64,000 nucleotides of DNA, from assembly GCA_036852015.1 (NCBI GenBank), contig JAANDG010000483.1, positions 1 to 64,000 of the forward strand, read 5' to 3'. The position numbers and the translations under genes are program-made. Source of the stretch: Pelodera strongyloides. Lineage: Eukaryota; Nematoda; Chromadorea; Rhabditida; Rhabditidae. The notes under the pieces were generated by a model. The model had not been told where the DNA came from and did no database searches. It was given only the letters and a program-made list of their open reading frames with translations. Below, piece after piece: positions 6,228-56,050 of this stretch (within the stretch, counting starts at the first letter, position 1; the number at the start of each line of letters is the position of its first letter).

Positions 6228-6993
6228 GACGTATGACCTTGGCAAGCGTCACGGGCTGACAGCGAGTGCCAGTCACAACCGTTTATTTCTCAGAGAAAAT
6301 CTACAACGTTTTTACCTGTCAGAGTTGGAGATAACTCTGCTGCCAGTAACAACCGTAGATTTCTCAACGAGAAACCACCCACGTTCGCACCAGTTAGAGT
6401 TGAAGATAACTCTGTCTAGTACAAACCGTGAGAACGGTTTAGTGCCTAAATCTGCAGCAGTCAGGCGGCGCCGAGACTCTGTTCAGAACGTATCAGTTTC
6501 AAGGAAGAAGGCGGTGCCGATCTATCCCCTCTAGAACTTCAACGTAGCACAAGTCTGTACAAGCAAGGCGGCGCCGATGCTTGTAACAGAGAATAAGAAG
6601 TAGAAGCGAACTCCTGAACGCCAGTGTTGTGTATCAAGGGTATTACTTCTGATACAACAGAACTGAGCGACAAGAGAGTGAGACGATCTTCGAATAACGG
6701 ATTTATTAGCGATGAAGACGGGCGAGGCGATATAATGAGCGAGATGATAAGCTGATGAGTGTTTAGGCCGTAGCCCTTATATACGGATGCCTACGTGCAG
6801 ATCAAACACCAATAATATAAACACTAATAACTTGCGGATATTTGCAATTAGTTAATTTGCCAACGGCAAGACATAGTGTACTCCACTGATCACTAAGGAC
6901 GAAAAGATCAGTGAGCAGATGTGAGTGAGTAACACGTGAACAACATAAGTAACAAAGTAACAAACTACAAACATCTTACCGTAATACCTAACA
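6228..6993 (-). repeat. Gypsy 3' LTR
   Basis: 766 bp, nearly identical to 10,458-11,388 apart from a foldback insertion in the latter. On the minus strand it starts TGTTAGGTATTACGG and ends near GGTCATACGTC. The exact 3' edge is uncertain because the expected CA end falls a few bases inside the shared region. Confidence 0.88.
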
Positions 6994-7053
6994 CCTCCAA
7001 CCTTAGTATTTAAGTTATACTTAAAACAAGAAAACAACAATTATACTAATGGT
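6994..7053 (-). other. Gypsy segment between pol stop and 3' LTR
   Basis: About 60 bp of AT-rich sequence. Some polypurine runs are visible (aaaacaag on the plus strand), but I cannot name a clear polypurine tract. Confidence 0.5.
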
Positions 7054-9042
7054 TTAATAACGCTTATTTGACGGGTTGATCTCCACCTTCGTCGTTGTCT
7101 TCCTTGCACGGCTGGATCGACGTAGTGGCGGTGTAGTTGTCACATCGGCTGGCGGCGCCGTAGAGGCAGCATCTTGGAAGATCTCCTCATCGTCCGGAAC
7201 TTCTTCTGGTACAGAGTGTTCAGCATCCTCAACTGTGTCTGTGACAGTTAGCGGTGGAGTCATTGACTTCGGGGTAGACTCCTTCAGGTTCGACTTCGGT
7301 CGTGGTGGGATATCGAATGCATCCAGCAAGATGTGATAGGCTCGGCTTTGGTTGGCAACAGTCCTCAGCCTCATCTGATTAGCATGTCGACGGATAAGGT
7401 TCTTGCGTCCTTCAATCCTCGCATCGTACATCACACTACCGTTCTTCTTGACTACTGTAGCTTCGATCCAAGTAGGTTTACTCTGGACCTTGTAGTCAAG
7501 AATGTAGACTAAGTCTCCGGGATGGAAAACTGTAGCCTTCGAACCGTGTTTCCTGTTAAACTGCTTCTCCATACGTTCGTCCTTGACGATCTTCCTCTCA
7601 GGCCTGGGTTTCAACAAATCCCACGATGTGCGCAGCTTTCTATTCAGAAATGCTTCAGCTGTCGACTTGCCTTCGGGAACGTTAGATGACGGCGTCATAA
7701 GGTATGAGAGCAGGAACGTCTGAAGATTCTCTACAGGGCTTCCCTCCCCCTTCAATTTCAGCAGCGCCCGCTTGAAAGTGTCAACGAACCTCTCCGCTTG
7801 TCCGTTTGATTGCGGGTGGAATGGTGGTGATCTGATATGTTTGATCCCATTCTTTGCACAGAACAACGCGAATTCAGCACTGGTGAATTGCGTTCCATTG
7901 TCTGTTACCAGCGTCTCTGGCATGCCGAATTGTGAGAAAATCTTCTTCAGGTTGGATATCGTAGCAGACGTAGTGGTTCGATCCATAGCAACGATTTCTG
8001 GCCACTTACTATATGCGTCAACGACAAGCAAATAGTATTTTCCTTCAAGTGGTCCAGCAAAATCAGCGTGTACTCGTTCCATAGGTTCACTTGCCTTGCT
8101 CCACGATTCCAAATTCGTCTTTGTCGGTGCTTTCTGAGCACGATTGCAGTTAGCACAGGACTTTACCATGTTCTCAATGTCCTCGTCAATGAATGGCCAA
8201 TAAACTAGCGATCTTGCGTCTTGCGAGTGTCTTGGTGCACGCAACTTGTGCAATTCCTTTATGAACCTGCCGTAGTAGTTGATCTTGCCGATGAAAGAGC
8301 GTAGCTGACTGCGGTCTTTCGGTTCGGGCATCCTCAAGATTGGCTCTATCTTGGATGGATCAGACTTGCGACCTTCTGCCGAGATAATCATCCCAAGGTA
8401 CCTTATCTCTCTTGCAGCAAAGATGCACTTCTCGAAGTTGACGTGGAAACCATACTCCGAGATCCTTTTCATGCAGGCATCTAGGTTCCGATTGTGTTCC
8501 TGTAGCGTTCTACCAGAAACTATCACATCATCAAGGTACGCGCAACAACCTCCGAGACCGGCAATCATAGCGACCATGATCTTTTGGAAGATTCCAGGAG
8601 CTGTCTTGACTCCAAAACACAGTCTGTTGTAACGGTACAATCCTCGATGAGTATTGATGACGAACAAGTCCTTGGAGTCGTCCTCTAGCTCAACTTGTAG
8701 GTAGGCGTCCTTAAAGTCGAGCGTACTGAAGATGGTTCCACCGTTGTTCAGTGTTGTCATTATATCTTCTGCTGTTGGAATCGGATGTGTGAAGTCTTCC
8801 AGTGCATCGTTCAGTCCCGTACTGCAATCGGCGCAGACTCTCACACTACCATTCGATTTCTTTACACAGAGAATCGGAGCGGCCCACGGAGAATATGTGT
8901 CGCGCTCAATGACTCCAAGTTGCTCTAGCCGGTCCAGCTCAGCTTCCACGTTTTCCTTGTAATGAATTGGTACCATTCTCTTTCGGCGAAAAACGGCGTT
9001 TGCCACTCTCTTGAGCTGAGGCACGCTTTGGTCTTCTTGCAC
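7054..9042 (-). pseudogene. Gypsy pol: reverse transcriptase joined to integrase, RNase H missing
   Basis: A 662-codon open frame. Residues about 1-230 are a Ty3-type reverse transcriptase: SPWAAPILCVKKSNG, FSTLDFKDAYLQVEL, LCFGVKTAP and the catalytic YLDDV. After FIGKINYYGRFIKELHKL the frame jumps to the end of an integrase zinc-binding region (VYWPFIDEDIENMVKSCANC), so the RT end, all of RNase H and the first zinc ligands are gone in frame. The integrase core follows (HADFAGP, VTDNGTQF, QAERFVDTF, giving the D-D-E triad), then the C-terminal RKHG...FHPGDLVY domain and an acidic/Pro-rich tail ending SSRARKTTTK. The element cannot be autonomous because it lacks RNase H. Confidence 0.9.
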
Positions 9043-9203
9043 AGACCAAGCTCGGTGGAGAATACATCAGAAAACTGCGTCTTGAACGTAGCAACGTACG
9101 TCGCAGCAGAGTCCTTCGGTGGTGATGTAGATATGGAAGGTTTTCCGGAGACCCGATTACATACAGCATCCAATATAGATCTGAATGACGGTAGACGTTC
9201 CAA
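9043..9203 (-). pseudogene. Gypsy pol, N-terminal spacer with frameshift
   Basis: Continues the protease frame after an in-frame TAG (9,204-9,206) with LERLPSFRSILDAVCNRV... and KTQFSDVFSTELGLCKKTK, typical of the segment between protease and RT. Homology then passes into the RT frame near 9,045, so a one-base frameshift lies there. Confidence 0.75.
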
Positions 9204-9488
9204 CTAGTCCAGGCCTAGGAGATTCATCCTAGCGGTGACGCGCACGACCTCGACGATCTGCTCATCCTGGTAAGAAGCGTTGCACTCGAACGAACCAAAC
9301 AATTCGAGCTGCTCTCCATTGGCTGCGGTCGCGACTATGCTTGGGGTTTTCAAGTTTGGTCGACCCAGCATCTTCCATGTGGCCTCGGAGATAAACGTTA
9401 GATCCGAGCCGGTGTCCAGTTGAAGTCGCAACTTCTTTCCATTCATCAGAATGTTAACGAATCTGCTTCCGACAGATCGCGAAGACAC
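9204..9488 (-). pseudogene. Gypsy aspartic protease
   Basis: Encodes LRLQLDTGSDLTFISEATW with the retropepsin D-T-G-S catalytic motif, then a hydrophobic C-terminal part. It is in the same frame as gag upstream and ends at an in-frame TAG. Confidence 0.82.
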
Positions 9489-10433
9489 TTCATGGACTTT
9501 TCTGTTGCTTTTGTTGTTGTCTTTCTGTTGACAAACAACGGCGTAATGCCCTCTTCTTCCACACTTGTTGCATGATACAGGCCTTCCACAGTACCTTCAC
9601 TTCACTTGTGTGGGCTTTCTTTCGTCTCTCTTGTGCTCTCGGTGATGGGGTTTATTGACGCGATTAACAGCAACGGGGTTCACGGGTAGGTCAATGTCAT
9701 CCTTGTGCTCGTGGTACTCGTCGACGGCCTCAGCGACATCGTCGAGTGTCATCTCTGGAGTACGATCCAGGGTTTTGATGAGCCATGCACGCATCTCCAT
9801 ATCCTCCGGATTGCGCAGGCTATTCAAATAATTGAGCACGCGGAACTGTGAACCAGATGGTTCGATGAATGCAAAATCATCGCAGGCCTTGTTGACGACA
9901 CCGATGTGAGTCTTGTAGTCAACGCCGTGTTGCTTGATGACGTGTAGGCATTCAATTCGTTTCCGGAACAGCGATTTCTTCGTGATGAAGACAACTTTCA
10001 TTTTCTCGAGAACCTAATCCAGACTCATATCCATTGGCTTCTTCGGCAGACAGCGCAATTTCAATAGCTTCTCCTGGTGAGGACCGAGACGAGACAACAG
10101 GAATCGAATTATGTTGCTCTCCGGAACACAAGCGGCTTGAACTTCTAGCAGATCTTCATGATCTTCGTACCAGTCCGTGAAACTAGCACCTTCATCGACA
10201 TTGAATTCAAACGTACGGATGTTCTTGTACAACACATCCAACATTCCCCTTGCTTCGGCGGTCAATGGCTCACTTTCTCGAATTCTTTCGAAAGTAACAT
10301 TTGCTTGAGTTTCTTCTTCCTTCTTCTCTTCCAGACGTTGCAATCTCGCAGCCGTAATCGACTGACTCCCTTTGAGTGCGTTCAGAGAAGTCAGGATGGC
10401 TTGGAGCATTTCCTCAGTGGACTGGACAGCCAT
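9489..10433 (-). pseudogene. Gypsy gag with zinc knuckle, two in-frame stops
   Basis: Starts at ATG 10,433 (MAVQSTEEMLQAILTSLNAL), although the frame is open back into the LTR. It holds a capsid-like helical region (EFNVDEGASFTDWYEDHEDLL), then TAG at 10,011-10,013, further gag sequence (KHGVDY-type and PEDMEMRAWLIKTLDRTPEM), TGA at 9,597-9,599, and a CCHC knuckle CNKCGRRGHYAVVC at 9,531-9,572. All pieces are in one frame, so the stops look like simple nonsense mutations. Confidence 0.82.
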
Positions 10434-10457
10434 GTTGACGAGCTCGGTCACGTCGGC

Positions 10458-11388
10458 GACGTATGACCTTGGCAAGCGTCACGGGCTGACAGCGAGTGCC
10501 AGTCACAACCGTTTATTTCTCAGAGAAAATCTACAACGTTTTTACCTGTCAGAGTTGGAGATAACTCTGCTGCCAGTAACAACCGTAGATTTCTCAACGA
10601 GAAACCACCCACGTTCGCACCAGTTAGAGTTGAAGATAACTCTGTCTAGTACAAACCGTGAGAACGGTTTAGTGCCTAAATCTGCAGCAGTCAGGCGGCG
10701 CCGAGACTCTGTTCAGAACGTATCAGTTTCAAGGAAGAAGGCGGTGCCGATCTATCCCCTCTAGAACTTCAACGTAGCACAAGTCTGTACAAGCAAGGCG
10801 GCGCCGATGCTTGTAACAGAGAAGAAGAAGTAGAAGCGAACTCCTGAACGCCAGTGTTGTGTATCAAGGGTATTACTTCTGATACAACAGAACTGAGCGA
10901 CAAGAGAGTGAGACGATCTTCGAATAACGGATTTATTAGCGATGAAGACGGGCGAGGCGATATAATGAGCGAGATGATAAGCTGATATAGCCCGTATTCT
11001 CGGGTCGACGGGAATGTTCCGGGAGCTCATTCGTATGCAAATTTTTCCTCCAGCTAATCTAGATAGTCGAGAAATTTGCATACAAAGGATTTCTCAAACG
11101 GAACGTTTCCGTCGACCCGAGAATACGGGCTATAATGAGCGATGAGTGTTTAGGCCGTAGCCCTTATATACGGATGGCTACGAGCAGATCAAACACCAAT
11201 AATAAAAACACTAATAACTTGCGGATAGTTGCAATTAGATAATTTGCCAACGGCAAGACATAGTGTACTCCACTGATCACTAAGGACGAAAAGATCAGTG
11301 AGCAGATGTGAGTGAGTAACACGTGAACAACATAAGTAACAAAGTAACAAACTACAAACATCTTAGGTATATACCGTAATACCTAACA
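10458..11388 (-). repeat. Gypsy 5' LTR with a foldback insertion
   Basis: Matches the 3' LTR but is 165 bp longer, mostly because of a palindromic element at about 10,989-11,130. The LTR runs almost directly into gag: only about 25 bp separate its shared edge from the first gag ATG, and no primer-binding site starting TGG is obvious. Confidence 0.88.
10989..11131. mobile_element. Palindromic MITE, AGCCCGTATTCTCGGG family
   Basis: Perfect outer arms agcccgtattctcgggtcga and its reverse complement, with inner arms gtatgcaaattt and aaatttgcatac. A second copy sits at 56,051-56,198 inside a Helitron. The target duplication is short and AT-rich, so its exact length is ambiguous. Confidence 0.85.
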
Positions 11389-39734: not shown

Positions 39735-40789
39735 TTAACTGTATTAAACTAAAGAATGTCGCCGAACGTTTCAGGTGATACCGTGTATTATCCATATTAA
39801 AGCAAAAACTACGCGAAATTAAGAAATTCTGTTGAATGTTCTTTCGTTCGACCGAAACATCGCTCAAGATTGGACGCTCGTTTCATGGGAAATAAGGGAA
39901 ATGTGCAGAGAATTACTCAATGCTTTGTTGCAAAATATGTCGACTAAATCTTTGTGAAATGAGTAAATGAAAAATTAGACTACGAAGTGATTACAAAAAG
40001 TATTTCATAAAAAGTTGTCAAATATTGTGATTTGGTAGTTCTTTGAGTTGTGAGTGTTCTTTGTTTCTTAAAATGAGCTGCGCGCCACCGCGCCCGAACG
40101 ATACACCACACATATTCCACATATGCAGCCTTTTTTGGACGTTCGTGAGAGGGGCGCTCGGGAAGTGAGATGGCTCAGTGCACGGGAACGTGAACTACTG
40201 AACCCAATCCTACAACCTGAGCGTAACGCACATCATCCAAACGTACACTCAAACAAACGCACAAACAAGCAAAGCTCCCAACTTTATATAATAATATTGC
40301 ATAGATGCATGTTGCAAATTTCACTTGCCGGCCTGTAACGTGTATCCAAGAACTCTTGCCTACACGCCCTACCCTCAGATGTACCCTATAAGTTCTGAAT
40401 ATAAACCTAGAGGTATGTTGTACTGTACCCTAAAATGGCAAGAAATGCAAGCTGCGATCGTGCATAACACGGTCATACAGTACACACCCAATATTCACTC
40501 AATAGCGTATCAAGCACGTAATCGATGCACCCATATCCCTCGTCGTGAGTGGCCATTCACTCCGCCCCATTTCATAATTTTGCTCGATATATACAAGTAC
40601 TCCATGGTGCTTATTGATATGAGCTGATTCCCAGTGAACACCTTCCCTATGAATCTTTATTTAGGTGAGTTGTATTTGCTTTTTCTGTGTAGCAACTAGC
40701 ACACATCAATTCGCAAATTGAACTGCCGGGGTGCTTTCACCTAGAAAAGTCCGCGGCAAGATATATTTCAGCTTAAACTGATCTCACCA

Positions 40790-48726: not shown

Positions 48727-49202
48727 CTGCAAAATATTCGTTTAACGAAATACGGGTAGCAGTCAAGTCCGAACTAACTTTTTAAATATTTTATTGAATT
48801 TCGATAGTTAAAGTGATAAAGTGTAAAGTGTACCGGGTTATGTCAAACGAATCCGCAGAAACGGTGCACCGGGGTCCGGTTTATTTCTGAAGCCGGACCA
48901 ACTGGCCTTTAAACTTCCCGGAGGCCAATTTTCTCGGGAAGCCGATTTATCTCTGCCGGTTTTACCCAGCTACCAGCTTTTACACCTTTGGTGAGGTGAA
49001 GGGGTTCCGGGCCGGGCTCGAACCAGCGACCGGTGGCGTGGAACAAGGCGCTTGCCACTGATCCACACCATGTCTTGCAAGTGTTTATTTGTGAAAAATT
49101 GTATATTAAAGGGCATGTCAAATAAAAGAGGAAGCAAATTGGGAAGATATAAGTGAATAAATTCAACAAACTAACATGAATATACCATATGTAATACGGT
49201 AA

Positions 49203-49271
49203 CCCCGTTTCGACCCTTCGCATACGAGGATTTTGCCACCGTTGGGTCACATCAGTGCGATGACGGTAGGC
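49203..49271 (-). ncRNA. Hammerhead-like ribozyme, left copy (permuted strand order)
   Basis: Order along the minus strand: extra helix GCC(U)ACCG; stem I UCGCA; core CUGAUGU; stem II GACCC; AA; extra helix CGGUGGC; AAAAU; stem III CCUCGU; A (cleavage position 17); stem I UGCGA; A; stem II GGGUC; GAA; stem III ACGGGG. All pairings are Watson-Crick except one G-U in stem III and one bulged U. The core has one deviation (A9 is U), so this copy may be inactive. Predicted cleavage is between plus positions 49,223 and 49,222. Confidence 0.7.
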
Positions 49272-49398
49272 TTAGGCAGTGAGTGAAAGAAAGGGATAGA
49301 GAGACAAATGTTATAGAGTACGTAAAGATATAACGTTATAGAGTAAAAAGGGTACAAAAATAATAGTAAAAACCGAATAAAACCGAACCTTGATACCA

Positions 49399-49546
<148 letters not shown>

Positions 49547-49925
49547 TGTAATAGTACCTGAATATCCTTACAAAAAGGGACAAGTAGAGAATAAATAAAC
49601 AAAATGCAGAAGAAAGTATAAAACTAACCTTGTATATGTCCTCAAGCCTCAAAATAACTAGGTAGGAATACATCAATAAGTAAGAAGTACTACGAAAGGG
49701 TATGGAGCAATGCAAGACGAGAGCAATGGGAAAGGGATGTAGTGTGTGTGTAGTATTGATTGGGTAAGAGTGCATGACATAAACCTAGTGTTAGAATATG
49801 TAGGTAAAGTTTATGAACTATGTGGTCTGTTGAAAAGAATTAGTTATCCATAAGTGAAAATATAATGTCGTAGATTATTGTTACAAAGTTATGCATAATA
49901 GAGAAGAATCGACAGAAATGCAAAA

Positions 49926-51430
49926 TTAAAGGTTGTCGACCCAACTGTTGAGACTTTTAGTAGAAGTATCGTATTTATAACTAATAATAGGGTACTTATT
50001 AAATGATTTTTTGATAGTTTTGAGTACAACGTCTTTGGGGTAATTGTTGGAGAGCAGCTTGATAATGAATGAATGGATTTTGGATTTGAAAGAAATAAGC
50101 TGGGAAGTGCATCTATAAATACGTATTACTTCACCTTGGATACAGTTTACTTTAATATGGTCACATATATGACTGTCATACATAGGAAATCTTATAACGT
50201 CAAAACTATAATCATCAGTTTTATTGTATAAATTGATAGTCCAATTATGTGTAGACCTAACAAGGGCGAGATCGAGAAAGGGAGCGGAGGAATCAACAGT
50301 ATTGGCCGCTTCGAGAATGAGAGAGCTAGGATAGATGGAATCAAGTATATCGAGAATGTTATCATCATTATAGAAAATAGCTATGTCATCCATATATCTG
50401 AACATGGACATCTTATAGCCGAGGGAAGAATTCAAAAAGTTTTTAAAGTATTTAAATTCAATCATACAAAGAGTTAAATCAGCAAGTAAAGGAGAGGAGT
50501 TACCTCCCTGAGGAACTCCTTTGATCTGGTGGAAAATAATGCCCTGGAATACTAGATAACTATTTTTAACTATGTAGCGTACCATGTTTTTAACTTCATT
50601 TGAAGAGAAACAGTTAGTAGACGGAGCATCAGTATAGTAACTTTTCGTAAATCCTACGTTAATAAGAGATCTACCGGGGTTTTTAAAGTATATATATCCG
50701 TTAGTTCTAGGATGCTATCAATGACACAATCATGAGGTAAGTTGGTAAAGAGACTACTAAAGTCCAAGACTTTGACTTTATGGAAACGATGTATAAGTGT
50801 AGAATTACTAATGCAAATGGAATTATCTATAGAAATGAAATTAGTTTTATTACTGCTCCAAGTTTTACTAGCATTACAGTAGTTTTTAAAATGCAAACGG
50901 AAATGTTTCAGTATTTTCTGAAGAGTAATCGAAAGGTTTTTGAGAGAGCTGTGTTTAGCAGCTGTGATGTAACGCATTTTAATCGATTTTTTATGCAATT
51001 TAGGAACTGCGTAAATGTTAGGAAGTTTGCGATCGGTATCAGAGCATTTTATATTAAGAATGTTGGAATAGTAAATATGACGGGATACAATACTGTCCTG
51101 TGACTCGAGATGATACGGAGAGTAAGTACGTTACCTTTATATTCGAATGAACCGTTTTCGTTCTTAGCAATACCCAATTCTTTGTGAAGGAAGTGTGAAT
51201 ATAAAAGAGGGCAAGAGAAAAAAAAGTTAGCGGACGCCTTATCTACGCACTAATAATAAACTGTCTCTTAATATGGTTAATTTCTTTGTAAATAGAGCAG
51301 TTAGAGTTAACATGAGGTTTACGAAAACCTTGGATGACTTCATTTAACTTTTCCCATATGGGAACAGAACAATTAAGCGTACTAGTGTATTCATTGAGGT
51401 TTTTAGACAAGTCATTGAAAAGTACGTGTA
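49926..51430 (-). pseudogene. Penelope-like reverse transcriptase (frameshifted)
   Basis: Pieces in order: LEEHLHVLFNDLSKNL... (51,430-51,250); a DKA motif with an FSCPLLYSHFLHKELGI segment (about 51,240-51,185), the Penelope counterpart of DKG; LPNIYAVPKLHKK (about 51,010); KVLDFSSLFTNLPHDCVIDS (about 50,750); QIKGVPQGGNSSPLLADLTL (about 50,520); and the catalytic MFRYMDDIAIF (about 50,400). The C-terminal thumb (NLYNKTDDYSFDVIRFP, CIQGEVIRIYRCTS, SFNKYP) runs to the stop at 49,926. Frame changes near 51,245, 51,050 and 50,655 mean it is not translatable as one protein. The last 110 residues match the fragments at 20,617 and 59,015. Confidence 0.88.
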
Positions 51431-51439
51431 AATGTTCTT

Positions 51440-52723
51440 CTAGTTTTTACTGGAAAAAGGTTCTCTGAACTTGGTTCCTTTTGAAAGAAAAGTTGTGGCT
51501 CTAGGGAAGCGGGATTCAAATATTTTGCAATTTCCAGAGATTATATGAAGAGAACCGTCGATATCGATTTTTTCTTTAGTGTTACAAAAAGAAAGGTAAT
51601 CCTTACAATTACAATGAACGTGGTTAACAGTAGGGTTGTTAGCAACAGTCTTGTGATTAAATAGGCGAGGTCCTAAAGGAATGCTATATTGATTTTGGTA
51701 GCAAATACGAGGTAAAAATGGAAGTGGGATATTATTAGAGATGAAAGTGTTACGGATGAATCTATTTATGGCGTATTTGAGATTAAACCCTTTAGAATCG
51801 GTACAAATAAAGGGAATTTTGATGCGAAAATCCGGTTTAGACGGCTTGGTATTTCTATCTTTCAGAGTTTTAGAAGCGCAAGAATTGCCACATATTGCTT
51901 CTACATTACGTCTGAAATAACTAGAGTGTTCATTAGAGAAATAATTTCGAACCAGGATCTTTTTAGTAGATTTAGCCAACCGGTTTTTGAGAGAAACAAG
52001 TGTTTGGAAATCAGTAGGATGAGAGAGGTTTGGAGGAGTAGTATTAAAAGACAATCTACGTTTTATTTTATTACGGGGACCTCGGTTTTTAGGTGGCCGA
52101 ATTATGTTACGACAGAAATATGGAATGTTATTATTACCAAGATTTTTCTTAGAGTAGTCACTAATGAGTCCGAAACCTTTAATATGATCGTTTAAGCCGT
52201 ATGGGTAAGCAGTGTTAAGAAGCCTAATCCAACAGAGTTCTTTATCCTTGCGAATACAGTTGTTCTTGTTTTCATTTAAACAGTCTAATATATGTATAGT
52301 AAATAGTTTTACATCGGAATTTGCTTGACAATTTGAGAAATGACGATACAGAATGGTTTCTTGTAAATTTTTATTGAGATGATATCGATGTTGACTAAAC
52401 CTGTTTTTCAAAGAGCGCTTTGTCTCACCTACATACTGCATATTGCAGTTATCACAAGTTAGACTATAGATAACCCCTTCGCTGGAGCAATTACTAATAC
52501 TAGAGGCGAAAGTATGAGAGAAGTATCTTGTTGTGCTGCTACGAATGAGTTTTTCAAAAGAGATCAATGGGCAAATTTTGCAACGGGACGATTTACAGGG
52601 ATTGCCAAAAGACTGTGTGCCTTCAATAGACGTAAGCTTTAGATTCGGGCCAATCTTTTTAGAGCTGAAACAAGTTTGGGTGTGGTAGTTTGCTGTGGTA
52701 TTGTTAGGGCATAAGAATTCACC
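51440..52723 (-). CDS. GIY-YIG endonuclease ORF of the Penelope-like element
   Basis: Open from 52,723 (no ATG before 52,567). Near the N-terminus is a zinc-finger-like PCKSSRCKICPLIS, then the nuclease: GVIYSLTCDNCNMQYVGETK (GIY and YVG), SLKNRFSQHRYHLNK (catalytic Arg/His region) and LYRHFSNC. About 190 further residues follow, including NKIKRRLSFNTTPPNLSHPT and a Cys/His-bearing end (NHVHCNCKDYLSFC). It likely nicks target DNA for retrotransposition. The domain lies upstream of the RT. The true start is uncertain: the frame's ATG would cut off the cysteine cluster, so an upstream or non-ATG start, or a preceding frameshift, is likely. Confidence 0.85.
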   Translation of the reverse strand, partial: GEFLCPNNTTANYHTQTCFSSKKIGPNLKLTSIEGTQSFGNPCKSSRCKICPLISFEKLIRSSTTRYFSHTFASSISNCSSEGVIYSLTCDNCNMQYVGETKRSLKNRFSQHRYHLNKNLQETILYRHFSNCQANSDVKLFTIHILDCLNENKNNCIRKDKELCWIRLLNTAYPYGLNDHIKGFGLISDYSKKNLGNNNIPYFCRNIIRPPKNRGPRNKIKRRLSFNTTPPNLSHPTDFQTLVSLKNRLAKSTKKILVRNYFSNEHSSYFRRNVEAICGNSCASKTLKDRNTKPSKPDFRIKIPFICTDSKGFNLKYAINRFIRNTFISNNIPLPFLPRICYQNQYSIPLGPRLFNHKTVANNPTVNHVHCNCKDYLSFCNTKEKIDIDGSLHIISGNCKIFESRFPRATTFLSKGTKFREPFSSKN

Positions 52724-53176
52724 TCAGTCCGCCGCCCTCGGCTTCAGAGGATAGGTTGGGTAATGGAAAGAGCTTTTAGAATCTGAGAAACTTACATGGC
52801 GGGTTCAAGCTAGAGAACTCTACCACGTTGACACGAAGGACACCGAGCGACATTCTCCCACTTTCCGTTTACAACCATGAACCGGAGAATGCCTCTTACA
52901 GTGTTAGTGGAATACTTGAGTATAACCACTACCTCCATCGTGCCGTGTGGAAACCGATATCAGATAGTAAGTAAAAATAAGTAGGTTTTAAGATAGAGAC
53001 TATCCGGGGATCAAAGCAGTCCGAAAGATGGAATTATAAAGGGCTAGCAGTAGAAATTACTGCAAAAGTGACGGTAATACAAAAATTACCTAATAATATT
53101 ATAAATGTTGAAATTAACAAGTATAAAGTAACAAGAAATTAACAAGAAATTAAATTAACAAACAACATGAAAATTA

Positions 53177-53573
53177 TCTTATTATATAAAGTTGGGAGCT
53201 TTGTTTGTTTGTTTGTTTGTTTGATTGATTGATTGTGTGTTTGGATGATGTGCGTTACGCTCAGGGAGTAAGATTGGTTCAGTAGTTCATGTTCCCATGC
53301 ACTGAGCCATCTCACATCCTGAGCGCCCCTCTCACAAACGTCCAAATAAGGCTGCATATACGGAATATGTGTGGTGTATCGTTCGGGCGCTTCCGCGGCG
53401 CTAAAAGTACTTCGATTAAAATACAAGGAACATGCAAATCTAGAGCAACAAAAGAAGCAATAACGCGAGGATTTTACATATGCAAATTTTTTAATCACTT
53501 TTGAATCCACGTTTCACGTATGTATGAAATAAAAATGTAGTAGAAGGTCGCCTCAGGCGGCGCAGCCGTCTGG
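53177..53573 (+). mobile_element. Non-autonomous Helitron B nested in the Penelope-like element
   Basis: Starts TCTTATTATATAAAGTTGG after A and ends with hairpin gtcgcctcaggcggc, gcagccgtCTGG, before T. It contains a tttg/attg microsatellite near its 5' end. It shares a 5' signature with Helitron A but has a different 3' hairpin. Confidence 0.88.
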
Positions 53574-53739
53574 TAATATAAAAAAGACACAAATATAATA
53601 AGTAAAAAGAAAAAAAAAGGGGAAGAAAAAACGTAAAGAAAGTAAGGGCCCTTGAAAGTAGTGAATAAACGGGACGTGTTTGTCGCGCGTTATTCAGTGT
53701 AGAATGATGAATAGTATAGCAGACTGAGCAAGGCTCAGA

Positions 53740-53809
53740 CCCCGTTTCGACCCTGATCTTAGACGAGGATTTTGCGGTGGTTGGGTCTCATCAGTAAGAT
53801 GGCCGCCGC
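53740..53809 (-). ncRNA. Hammerhead-like ribozyme, right copy (permuted strand order)
   Basis: Minus strand order: extra helix GCGGCGG; CC; stem I AUCUUA; core CUGAUGA; stem II GACCC; AA; extra helix CCACCGC; AAAAU; stem III CCUCGU; C (position 17); stem I UAAGAU; CA; stem II GGGUC; GAA; stem III ACGGGG. Every invariant core base of a hammerhead is present, with G10.1-C11.1 and A15.1-U16.1. The extra helix has one A-C mismatch. Predicted cleavage is between plus positions 53,762 and 53,761. Confidence 0.75.
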
Positions 53810-55023
53810 TTGGAATATGAATATGGAATAATGGATAGGAGTAGTTGTCCTGTGGTATGGGGAGCGAGTGTGAGTGGCTCTGTGTTCTTGGGTGTTGTGG
53901 TTGGGTGAATAAGAGTGTCCATGTGTCTCTGCCGTGTCTGCGCTCTCTCTCCTACCCATGTGGCCCTGGGCCCTGGTCTTTGAGGGAGAATCAATGGCAC
54001 ACAAAGGGGTGATGAGAAAACTGTCCAAATGACTCGGTGAAAGCCGAGACACTCCCGGGCGACAAGAAGATGTATTCCTCGGAATTATGGGTCGAGAAGA
54101 GGTCGAGACAGTGTTTGAAGGTTGTAAAATGATTGAAAGAAAAGCGATGGCGGCAAAATAACTTTAAAATTGAGGTATTAAACTTAATTAAGGATAAAAG
54201 AAAGAAAAGCAGAAGCATGTATAAGAGTGAAGGAAACATAGTTCTGTAACATATGAACAAGAATAAAGAAAAGGAAATATAGCAAAAAGTAAGTAGAATA
54301 GAATCATGAGAAATGTAATCAGTCAAGTAAGTACATTATTAGGACTAAAAATAAGCATGTCAATAATGACATGAATTCCATGTAGCAACAATGTTTAGTC
54401 ACAAGGACAAAACACCGTACAGTACACTACTTGGGTATAATTATGCCACGAGGGCACGGGTAAAATTATGCCACGAGGGCACGGGTAACATTATGCTACG
54501 AGGGCACGGCTATCTAGATAGATTCTAGATAACAAGAAGCAAGAAAATAGTCTAAGTAAGGAGACAGAGAAAACCTAAGTCTAGAGAGGGGTGCAAGGTG
54601 TAGGAAAAACAAATAAAGCTGAGATACATATAAGCTCACATTACGAGTAGAAATAAATAGTTGGATATACAACGATAATGGAAAGGGGAACATGAAGTAC
54701 TGTGTGATGTGATGTGTGGCGACCAACTAGGCTAAAAGGAAAGGAAGCAAATATAGTGCGAAAATTAGTAAGTATAAAAGAGTATTCAACATGGAGAGGG
54801 GATATCATAGAATTGTCAGCGTGGAAAGAAATAGATAAAACATAAAATATTACAAAATATGGTAAGGAGAGGAAGATCTTATAGCAAGCTAGGGGGGCAG
54901 CGAAGCCTCCAACAGATGCGAGCCAAGATCCAATAACAAATAAAAGAGGAAGCAAATTAGGAAGATATAAGTGAATAAATTCAACAAACTAACATGAATA
55001 TACCATATGTAATATGGTAACCC
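53810..55023 (-). repeat. Right terminal region (pseudo-LTR) of the Penelope-like element
   Basis: Mostly A/T-rich with no frame I trust. Contains three tandem tatgccacgagggcacggg units at 54,440-54,510. The outer 85 bp match the left end of the element. Confidence 0.65.
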
Positions 55024-56050
55024 CGGATTCTGCGCAGAAAGGCATCTCCTGGCGCAGATTAAGTAAATCTCGAACGGCGCACAATACAGTATACCCATAA
55101 AAATGGCCGCAGATTAAAATATTTCAAATTTTGTCATAAACGTGGACAAAACCTCCATCAGGTTCAACTATAGGGCTGCGCCGCAGTCGGAATTCAATAA
55201 TAGGGCTGCGCCGCAGTCGCGTCCGCGCTGTTCAAACCCCGTCGCCTCAGAAAAACCAACACGTGAAGCAAAAAAAACCGAAATCCCGTAGTGAAGGCAT
55301 TTTTTGGAGGGGTTTGAAATTTTTTTTACCCAAAAGTTTTTGTTTATTTTTATTTTCACTTTCGTTACCTAAAAAAATAAGCTTTTTTTTAGCCCAACAT
55401 GCAAAACCGGCTTGACATTCCCTTTAATGCTTGATGTGGGCAATTATTTGACTGTCGATAGTTTGTCGATAGAAAACGACTGACGAAACGCTGGTTGTTT
55501 AAACAAAAATGGCGAAACACCTGACTAAAATTGTTGCAACTGGTGTTTCGCGTGATTGTCGCGCCTGAAGACTCATCTCTTGTCGCCGAATAGCCGCCTA
55601 ATAGCTGCCCGATAGCCGCAGTTCCAAACAGTTCCAAAATTAGCGAGACACATGGCGTAGTCTATGTTCATGTTATGCTGGTGGCCAGCGAAACTATTTC
55701 TTTGGGCGAACCCGTCAGTGAAAATAATTGCGCCTGACGTACGCGTGAATGAAAATAGAATTACTTTCCAATTCAACCGCATTCACTGTGCATAATCAGA
55801 GTTTTTTCTCCGCTCCCGAATGCTCTGTTAAATGTTAAATATATTAAATTTTAACTATAAATAACATAAACCTTCTGGTATAAATGCACTACATTCAAAC
55901 AAAACAGCAGCCATTTCCTTACCATGATCACAGGTTATTGTGATCCTTCCTTATGTCATTTATATGTATTTTATCCAATTTAATTTATTTAATGGTATTA
56001 AAGGAAGGCAGTCACTTCAAATTCGTCATTTTACTTTGTGCAATCTTATT

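Follow-up and report, generated by a model that had tools for sequence, protein, structure and literature searches.

Eckert et al. (2023; PMC10085705) divided the hammerhead ribozyme into three blocks, C, S and G, of which six orders are possible, and searched metagenomes, metatranscriptomes and RefSeq 85. Their type CSG is described there from two similar sequences, from metagenomes only, with no host given and with modest covariation; RNAs of 77–78 nt of this type cleave in vitro as single copies at the expected site, at 0.004 and 0.03 per min; in these RNAs stems I and II are apparently drawn towards each other by an additional helix. A second paper on type CSG was not found in the open-licence PMC literature searched. 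Among the mobile elements known to carry hammerheads, the retrozymes of Jatropha have LTRs of about 330 bp and 697–776 bp between their sites, and the metazoan repeats are described in the same paper as having no PBS or PPT except for tRNA-Gln in schistosomes (PMC4918200). Penelope-like elements have been named as strong candidates for mobilising metazoan retrozymes (PMC7229834). The literature searched yielded no report of LTR-type retrozymes in animals or of retrozymes with a non-circularly permuted ribozyme. Thus, for the motif discussed here the C-S-G order and the extra helix are already known, and what is new is their host setting in nematode mobile elements.

The motif lies in a stretch of 64,000 nucleotides of the nematode Pelodera strongyloides (contig JAANDG010000483.1; hereinafter the window), for which a first-pass annotation had proposed a hammerhead core with a non-standard strand order. 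Base-by-base reading of the minus strand confirms its claim that the three junction strands are present with their invariant bases and bears out the non-cyclic, pseudoknotted succession of core, cleavage and GAAA strands; its coordinates, strand and predicted cleavage site all agree with our reading (Table 1). Its remark that it knew of no described class with such an order does not hold, as Eckert et al. (2023; PMC10085705) had described this order under the name type CSG, apparently with the bridging helix included. Read 5′ to 3′, the motif runs P0–I–CUGAUGA–II–P0′–III′–U C–I′–II′–GAAA–III, and as this order is not cyclic it falls outside hammerhead types I–III. The window copy has all the invariant hammerhead bases, the A15.1–U16.1 pair and a C at H17, and its stems I, II and III pair over 6, 5 and 5 bp, respectively (stem III with one G.U, the A-U pair being extra). 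Of the 7-bp extra helix said to link stems I and II, the helix itself (here P0) is present, but with six Watson–Crick pairs and a C.A mismatch (C53805/A53778) in the window copy (L001), where the sister copy L002 has U-A. The linkers P0–I, I–II and II–P0 are CC, CA and AA, 2 nt each, and AAAAU connects P0′ to III′; such short linkers suggest, as a reading of the sequence rather than a computed model, that P0, I and II would meet as a three-way junction opposite the core. Rfam at gathering scores reported no hammerhead within the window, and a search of the genome with RF00163 was empty, as it also was in control genomes, so that this result is not proof of absence. Judged by its sequence and structure, the window motif is almost certainly a type-CSG hammerhead.

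Table 1. Features of the window bearing on the predicted ribozyme and its host elements
Feature	Position	Strand	Basis
Motif read as a type-CSG hammerhead	53740..53809	-	direct reading, scan, pattern, covariation; cleavage site predicted, 53762/53761
Block C: stem I 5′ strand + CUGAUGA core	53788..53800	-	direct reading, scan
Block S: stem III 3′ strand, U16.1, C17, stem I 3′ strand	53756..53768	-	direct reading, scan
Block G: stem II 3′ strand, GAAA, stem III 5′ strand	53740..53753	-	direct reading, scan
P0 bridging helix 3′ strand, CCACCGC	53774..53780 (53780-53774)	-	direct reading; P0 pairing statistics
P0 5′ strand, GCGGCGG	53809-53803	-	direct reading
Stem I 5′, AUCUUA	53800-53795	-	direct reading
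Core, CUGAUGA	53794-53788	-	direct reading
Stem II 5′, GACCC	53787-53783	-	direct reading
Stem III 3′, CCUCG	53768-53764	-	direct reading
U16.1	53763	-	pairs with A15.1 at 53745
C17	53762	-	predicted cleavage 3′ of C17
Stem I 3′, UAAGAU	53761-53756	-	direct reading
Stem II 3′, GGGUC	53753-53749	-	direct reading
GAAA	53748-53745	-	direct reading
Stem III 5′, CGGGG	53744-53740	-	direct reading
430-bp LTR-like insertion, TGTCTCG...GCGACA	53681..54110	-	missing from C62 Penelope-like copy; 84.6% like L013 repeat; ends + TSD
TSD AACAC, upstream copy	54111..54115	-	element ends + TSD reading
TSD AACAC, downstream copy	53676..53680	-	element ends + TSD reading
Penelope-like element, interrupted by stops and insertions	49100..55025, limits approximate	-	match to C62 tandem copy
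GIY-YIG endonuclease frame, upstream of RT	51440..52567	-	PF01541, 23.3 bits, cut-off 22.6
Reverse transcriptase (RT) frame	49926..50585	-	PF00078, 29.7 bits, cut-off 29.6
Penelope-like element's own predicted type-CSG motif, core CUGAUGU (last A to U)	49203..49271	-	direct reading

The genome was searched with a sequence-only pattern, which prescribes the core, H, GAAA, a portion of stem II and two of the stem III pairs and leaves the 5′ strand of stem I and P0 free. It recovers 354 places in 160 Mb as against one for the reversed control (240 as against one for a first version whose gap was narrower). Scanned for the structure on both strands, the window contains a single motif of this kind, and 100 resamples of it drawn from a first-order Markov model contain none; the window motif is not a product of chance. 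The viral_contigs collection has no pattern match. A pattern in the type I order matches 95 places in the genome versus one for its control; these mostly coincide with CSG loci, where CGT comes after GAAACGG, and 24 of the 25 on contigs C3–C84 start at the same base as a CSG-pattern match. We rejected the type I reading of these matches as canonical hammerheads, the bases after CGTA in the L062 family being unpaired with stem I. Separately, six tandem type-I-order matches on the minus strand (G000:C463:17731-18920) follow one another in steps of 186–187 bp, with one of 383; this array is possibly satellite-like, with a Penelope-type motif and near the metazoan retrozyme in monomer size.

The first-pass association of the motif with Penelope-like elements is right in general, but the window copy sits in a 430-bp LTR-like insertion within such an element. 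The enclosing element aligns with C62 to the left and right of 53683-54110, a segment that C62 is without. We read this insertion, which has no match in the plasmids collection, as the solo LTR of an LTR-retrozyme-like element, nested in the Penelope-like element and probably without a role of its own. A second CCCGGGAG/TGTCTCGG junction lies 62 bp inside it, suggesting that its LTR may exceed that of L006 in length. Three small elements (L006, L022 and L030) have two direct repeats of 342–357 bp with the motif in each, in units of 839–899 bp; the repeats are 100% identical and, therefore, young. The small elements start with TGTCTCG and end with GCGACA (TG...CA), and a perfect 5-bp TSD is seen in 8 of 20 delimited copies, including that of the window; among the remaining 12 some are mis-delimited at an inner TGTCTCG and others are truncated or truly TSD-less. 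The TSD of L022 is AATTG once one ambiguous base is assigned to the flank. The PBS-like TGGTGCAC comes after the first repeat in all seven two-repeat copies listed, the genome has 30 instances of the LTR-end/TGGTGCAC junction, and the tract preceding the second repeat is weakly purine-rich. Predicted cleavage sites are 839–894 bp apart in four of five small elements, with one site found by script in L008. Judged by ORF length only, the longest ATG frames in the five have 64–172 aa, a frame of 66–125 aa being common to three related elements. Comparison of the units with Penelope-like copies gave no match placeable inside the units, the motif region aside. From these features we read the small elements as putative LTR retrozymes, for which a circular RNA would be the expected further trait.

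The short TSDs and LTR-like ends favor an LTR-type integrase over the Penelope-like machinery for the small elements. Contigs as far as C84 carry 15 LTR-end/PBS junctions; four have no listed motif close by, and none of these four is near an integrase match among those listed (at least 150). No helper element emerged from this comparison. These motif-less junctions (C39:340413, C51:173239, C74:7908 and C84:110900 of G000) have exactly the sequence seen in the small elements and would mark either candidate helpers or diverged copies. The window itself contains an LTR retrotransposon at 6228-10986 (minus strand) with 529-bp direct repeats that are 99.8% identical and RT and integrase domains; its protein relatives are spread over nematodes, flatworms, insects and other groups, which does not discriminate between hosts, and its flanks have no TGGTGCAC junction. 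The genome shows 120 matches to the N-terminal domain of nematode cuticle collagens as against none in control genomes, six of which are prokaryotes, in agreement with a nematode host; an insect cuticle family gave no match in the genome or in its controls.

The enclosing element and its relatives display features expected of Penelope-like elements, namely apparent RT and GIY-YIG domains, tandem copies and terminal repeats. The placement of GIY-YIG upstream of RT is reportedly that of the Chlamys/Nematis group, as given by Craig et al. in 2021, and Cervera and De la Pena are said to have described Penelope-like elements with hammerheads in 2014. In the window, the terminal repeat piece at 54937-55025 is 97.8% like 49119-49207. 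The motif of the element at 49.2 kb is matched in other loci by 19 sequences that differ from it in having A in place of the U of CUGAUGU; a predicted type-SGC ribozyme with the same A-to-U core change is reported to cleave in vitro (PMC10085705). The upstream terminal-repeat piece starts at 55025, a base that corresponds to 49207; this point falls about 15 nt 3′ of where the 49.2-kb motif is predicted to be cleaved, and such a start may stem from templates whose 5′ ends were made by the ribozyme and then shortened by a few bases. Three further observations concern the body and end of this element: a run of about 150 C, broken up by a few A, in its 3′ part (49400-49550, minus strand), which is absent from the C62 copies as aligned; a second insertion relative to the C62 copy at 53122-53574, part of which is 87.5% like 40090-40297; and two copies of a GGTGCACCGGGGTCCGG-containing repeat at 48863 and 12901, the first adjoining the 3′ end.

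The RT search gave 150 relatives among the matches listed, 15 of them in open frames of at least 900 aa, and protein relatives number 159 at E up to 0.001; viral_contigs yielded no RT relative. One of the 159, P0001, passes the Pfam cut-offs for both GIY-YIG (residues 55–143) and RT (556–768); P0004 and P0073 show this domain order too, with one domain or both falling short of the cut-off. On contigs C3–C84, 21 of 37 RT matches are followed by a motif 235–624 bp downstream on the same strand and 16 have no motif by pattern, while an opposite-strand motif within 3 kb is found for none of the 37. Contig C62 has two tandem RT copies with motifs 4829 bp apart.

We consider it probable that the motif is a cis-folding type-CSG hammerhead that cuts element transcripts to unit length, and that the small elements are LTR retrozymes with an LTR retrotransposon as helper. 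Stems I and II would lie side by side, with the core closing one end and the P0 three-way junction closing the other in place of the usual loop–loop contact, and cleavage would occur 3′ of C53762. Transcripts spanning two copies would thereby be cut to unit-length RNAs, of 839–894 nt in the four small elements measured and, in the case of the C62 Penelope-like element, of about 4.8 kb. Circularisation and reverse transcription of these RNAs may follow, and the small elements would be mobilised by an integrase-bearing LTR retrotransposon. The steps differ in strength: cleavage in cis is very likely, the production of unit-length element RNA by it somewhat less so although still likely, and the chances that a circular RNA is the reverse-transcription template appear evenly balanced.

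The alternative that fares best, though improbable, is that a canonical type I (C-G-S) hammerhead is assembled across tandem copies or from two RNAs, one copy supplying the core and GAAA strands and another the cleavage strand, the order within a copy being incidental. Tandem copies do exist, spaced by 839–901 bp and 4.4–5.4 kb, and vertebrate retrozyme hammerheads are described as having to act as dimers (PMC7229834). However, each copy has its three blocks tied to one another by P0 and short linkers, the stem I–stem II linker being parsed as 0–6 nt long in 46 of the 47 distinct sequences, and the published type-CSG RNAs of 77–78 nt cleave singly (PMC10085705).

A slightly less probable alternative is that the motif is a decayed or inactive relic, its order arising from rearrangement and its copies having spread as passengers without need of cleavage. 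The Penelope-like copy of the window is broken and has the core CUGAUGU, and the window motif itself belongs to a solo LTR and has the C.A mismatch in P0. Against this stand the 100% identical, young repeats of the three small elements and a core that is invariant in the aligned set save for its n position; however, as the search pattern itself requires the core, pairing constitutes the sole independent evidence against a relic. The wider of the two CSG patterns, applied to the loci and the window, gave 108 matches whose upstream sequence was complete (some places being counted repeatedly where loci overlap), of which the 47 distinct ones were all aligned. Position H17 is occupied by A in 33 of these and by C in the other 14, the core and H being required by the pattern. 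In this alignment 91.1% of structure cells are paired, compared to 85.1% on shuffling (0/500) and 33–48% on sliding; the covariation score is 0.207 versus 0.107 (0/500) and cells with both sides changed number 92 versus 37 (0/500), in shuffles that leave uncorrected the relatedness of sequences that all come from one genome. There is no excess in the number of pairs changed on both sides (9 versus 7.5; 95/500) or of further pair types (25 versus 25.9; 405/500). Changes on both sides affect six of the seven pairs of P0, three of the six of stem I, and none in stems II and III, which lack covariation support because they scarcely vary.

As the alignment misplaces P0 in several families, this helix was also evaluated per sequence. 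Its mean duplex energy of −14.3 for a sequence's own partner weakens to −8.2 when partners are swapped and to −6.2 when they are shuffled, and a foreign linker is better than the own one in 208 of 2092 cross pairs; the weakest value (−4.8) is that of L051, a copy that stands apart from the others in the sequence 5′ of its core. Among 21 representatives less than 85% alike, the own-partner mean is equalled by none of 2000 partner permutations, the own linker ranks first in eight and within the top five in 20, and at least five stem I pairs are kept in 16, as compared to 159 of 376 cross pairs. The P0 helices include GCGGUGG/CCACCGC, GCCCGGG/CCCGGGC, CCGCGGG/CCCGCGG, GCUGUGG/CUACAGC and AGUCAGGGUG/CACCCUGAUU. 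Thus, as far as sequence comparison can tell, P0 and stem I keep their pairing as sequences change, and this pairing in 21 dissimilar representatives argues against a relic. The first-pass annotation had named homologues with unpaired stem I, stem II or extra helix as the observation that would count against it; in this one genome stem I and the extra helix stay paired, and stem II is hardly tested by the homologues because it is nearly invariant. Finally, a chance likeness of three short motifs, for which one could cite the single genome match of the reversed pattern and two matches, both stemless, in the prokaryotic genomes collection, is contradicted by 354 places versus one, 0 of 100 resampled windows and the pairing statistics, and we regard it as negligible.

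Together with the preferred reading of a working, cis-folding ribozyme, we lean towards the view that type CSG serves a nematode retroelement community, being common to autonomous Penelope-like elements and to LTR retrozymes otherwise unrelated to them in sequence (in the comparison made), and that it has passed between unrelated elements as a module. That both kinds of element carry the same rare ribozyme type fits such a shared module. Several hundred copies with a covarying stem I and bridging helix offer a biological setting for type CSG, and dozens of natural variants are now on hand for work on activity and structure. Further, the findings suggest that descriptors based on cyclic orders can overlook ribozymes in animal retroelements, and confirmation of the small elements would mean that LTR-type retrozymes occur in animals as well.

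As described in PMC10085705, type CSG shares with the present motif the C-S-G order, the conserved core, stems I–III, a helix joining I and II and a similar size. The two are likened by description and not by sequence, and they differ in that hundreds of copies are present here in one animal genome, within defined elements, with cleavage being a prediction. The 5′ product of CSG-1 has 48 nt, and 53809-53762 likewise amounts to 48 nt, an agreement that leaves the construct flanks unaccounted for and is, hence, not proof. Type SGC of the same report resembles the motif in its non-cyclic order, bridging helix and short I–II linker; in contrast, its block order differs and its 583 sequences come from hairpin-ribozyme contigs of metatranscriptomes. 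Among mobile elements, the plant LTR retrozymes, as presented in PMC4918200, are non-autonomous, as the small elements appear to be, and likewise have the ribozyme in direct repeats of 300–400 bp and solo LTRs, with a PBS where the small elements have a PBS-like site; but theirs is of type III with a 4-bp TSD, whereas the elements described here have type CSG, a 5-bp TSD and 839–894 bp between sites. The metazoan non-LTR retrozymes of PMC7229834 share the animal host, the tandem motifs and the coexistence with Penelope-like elements; however, they are described as having type I hammerheads, RNAs of about 170–400 nt and no LTR, PBS or PPT. Lastly, the hammerhead-bearing Penelope-like elements covered in PMC11167929 parallel those described here in their tandem arrangement, their RT and GIY-YIG domains and the location of the ribozyme in a terminal repeat, but the ribozymes of the known ones are minimal type I hammerheads.
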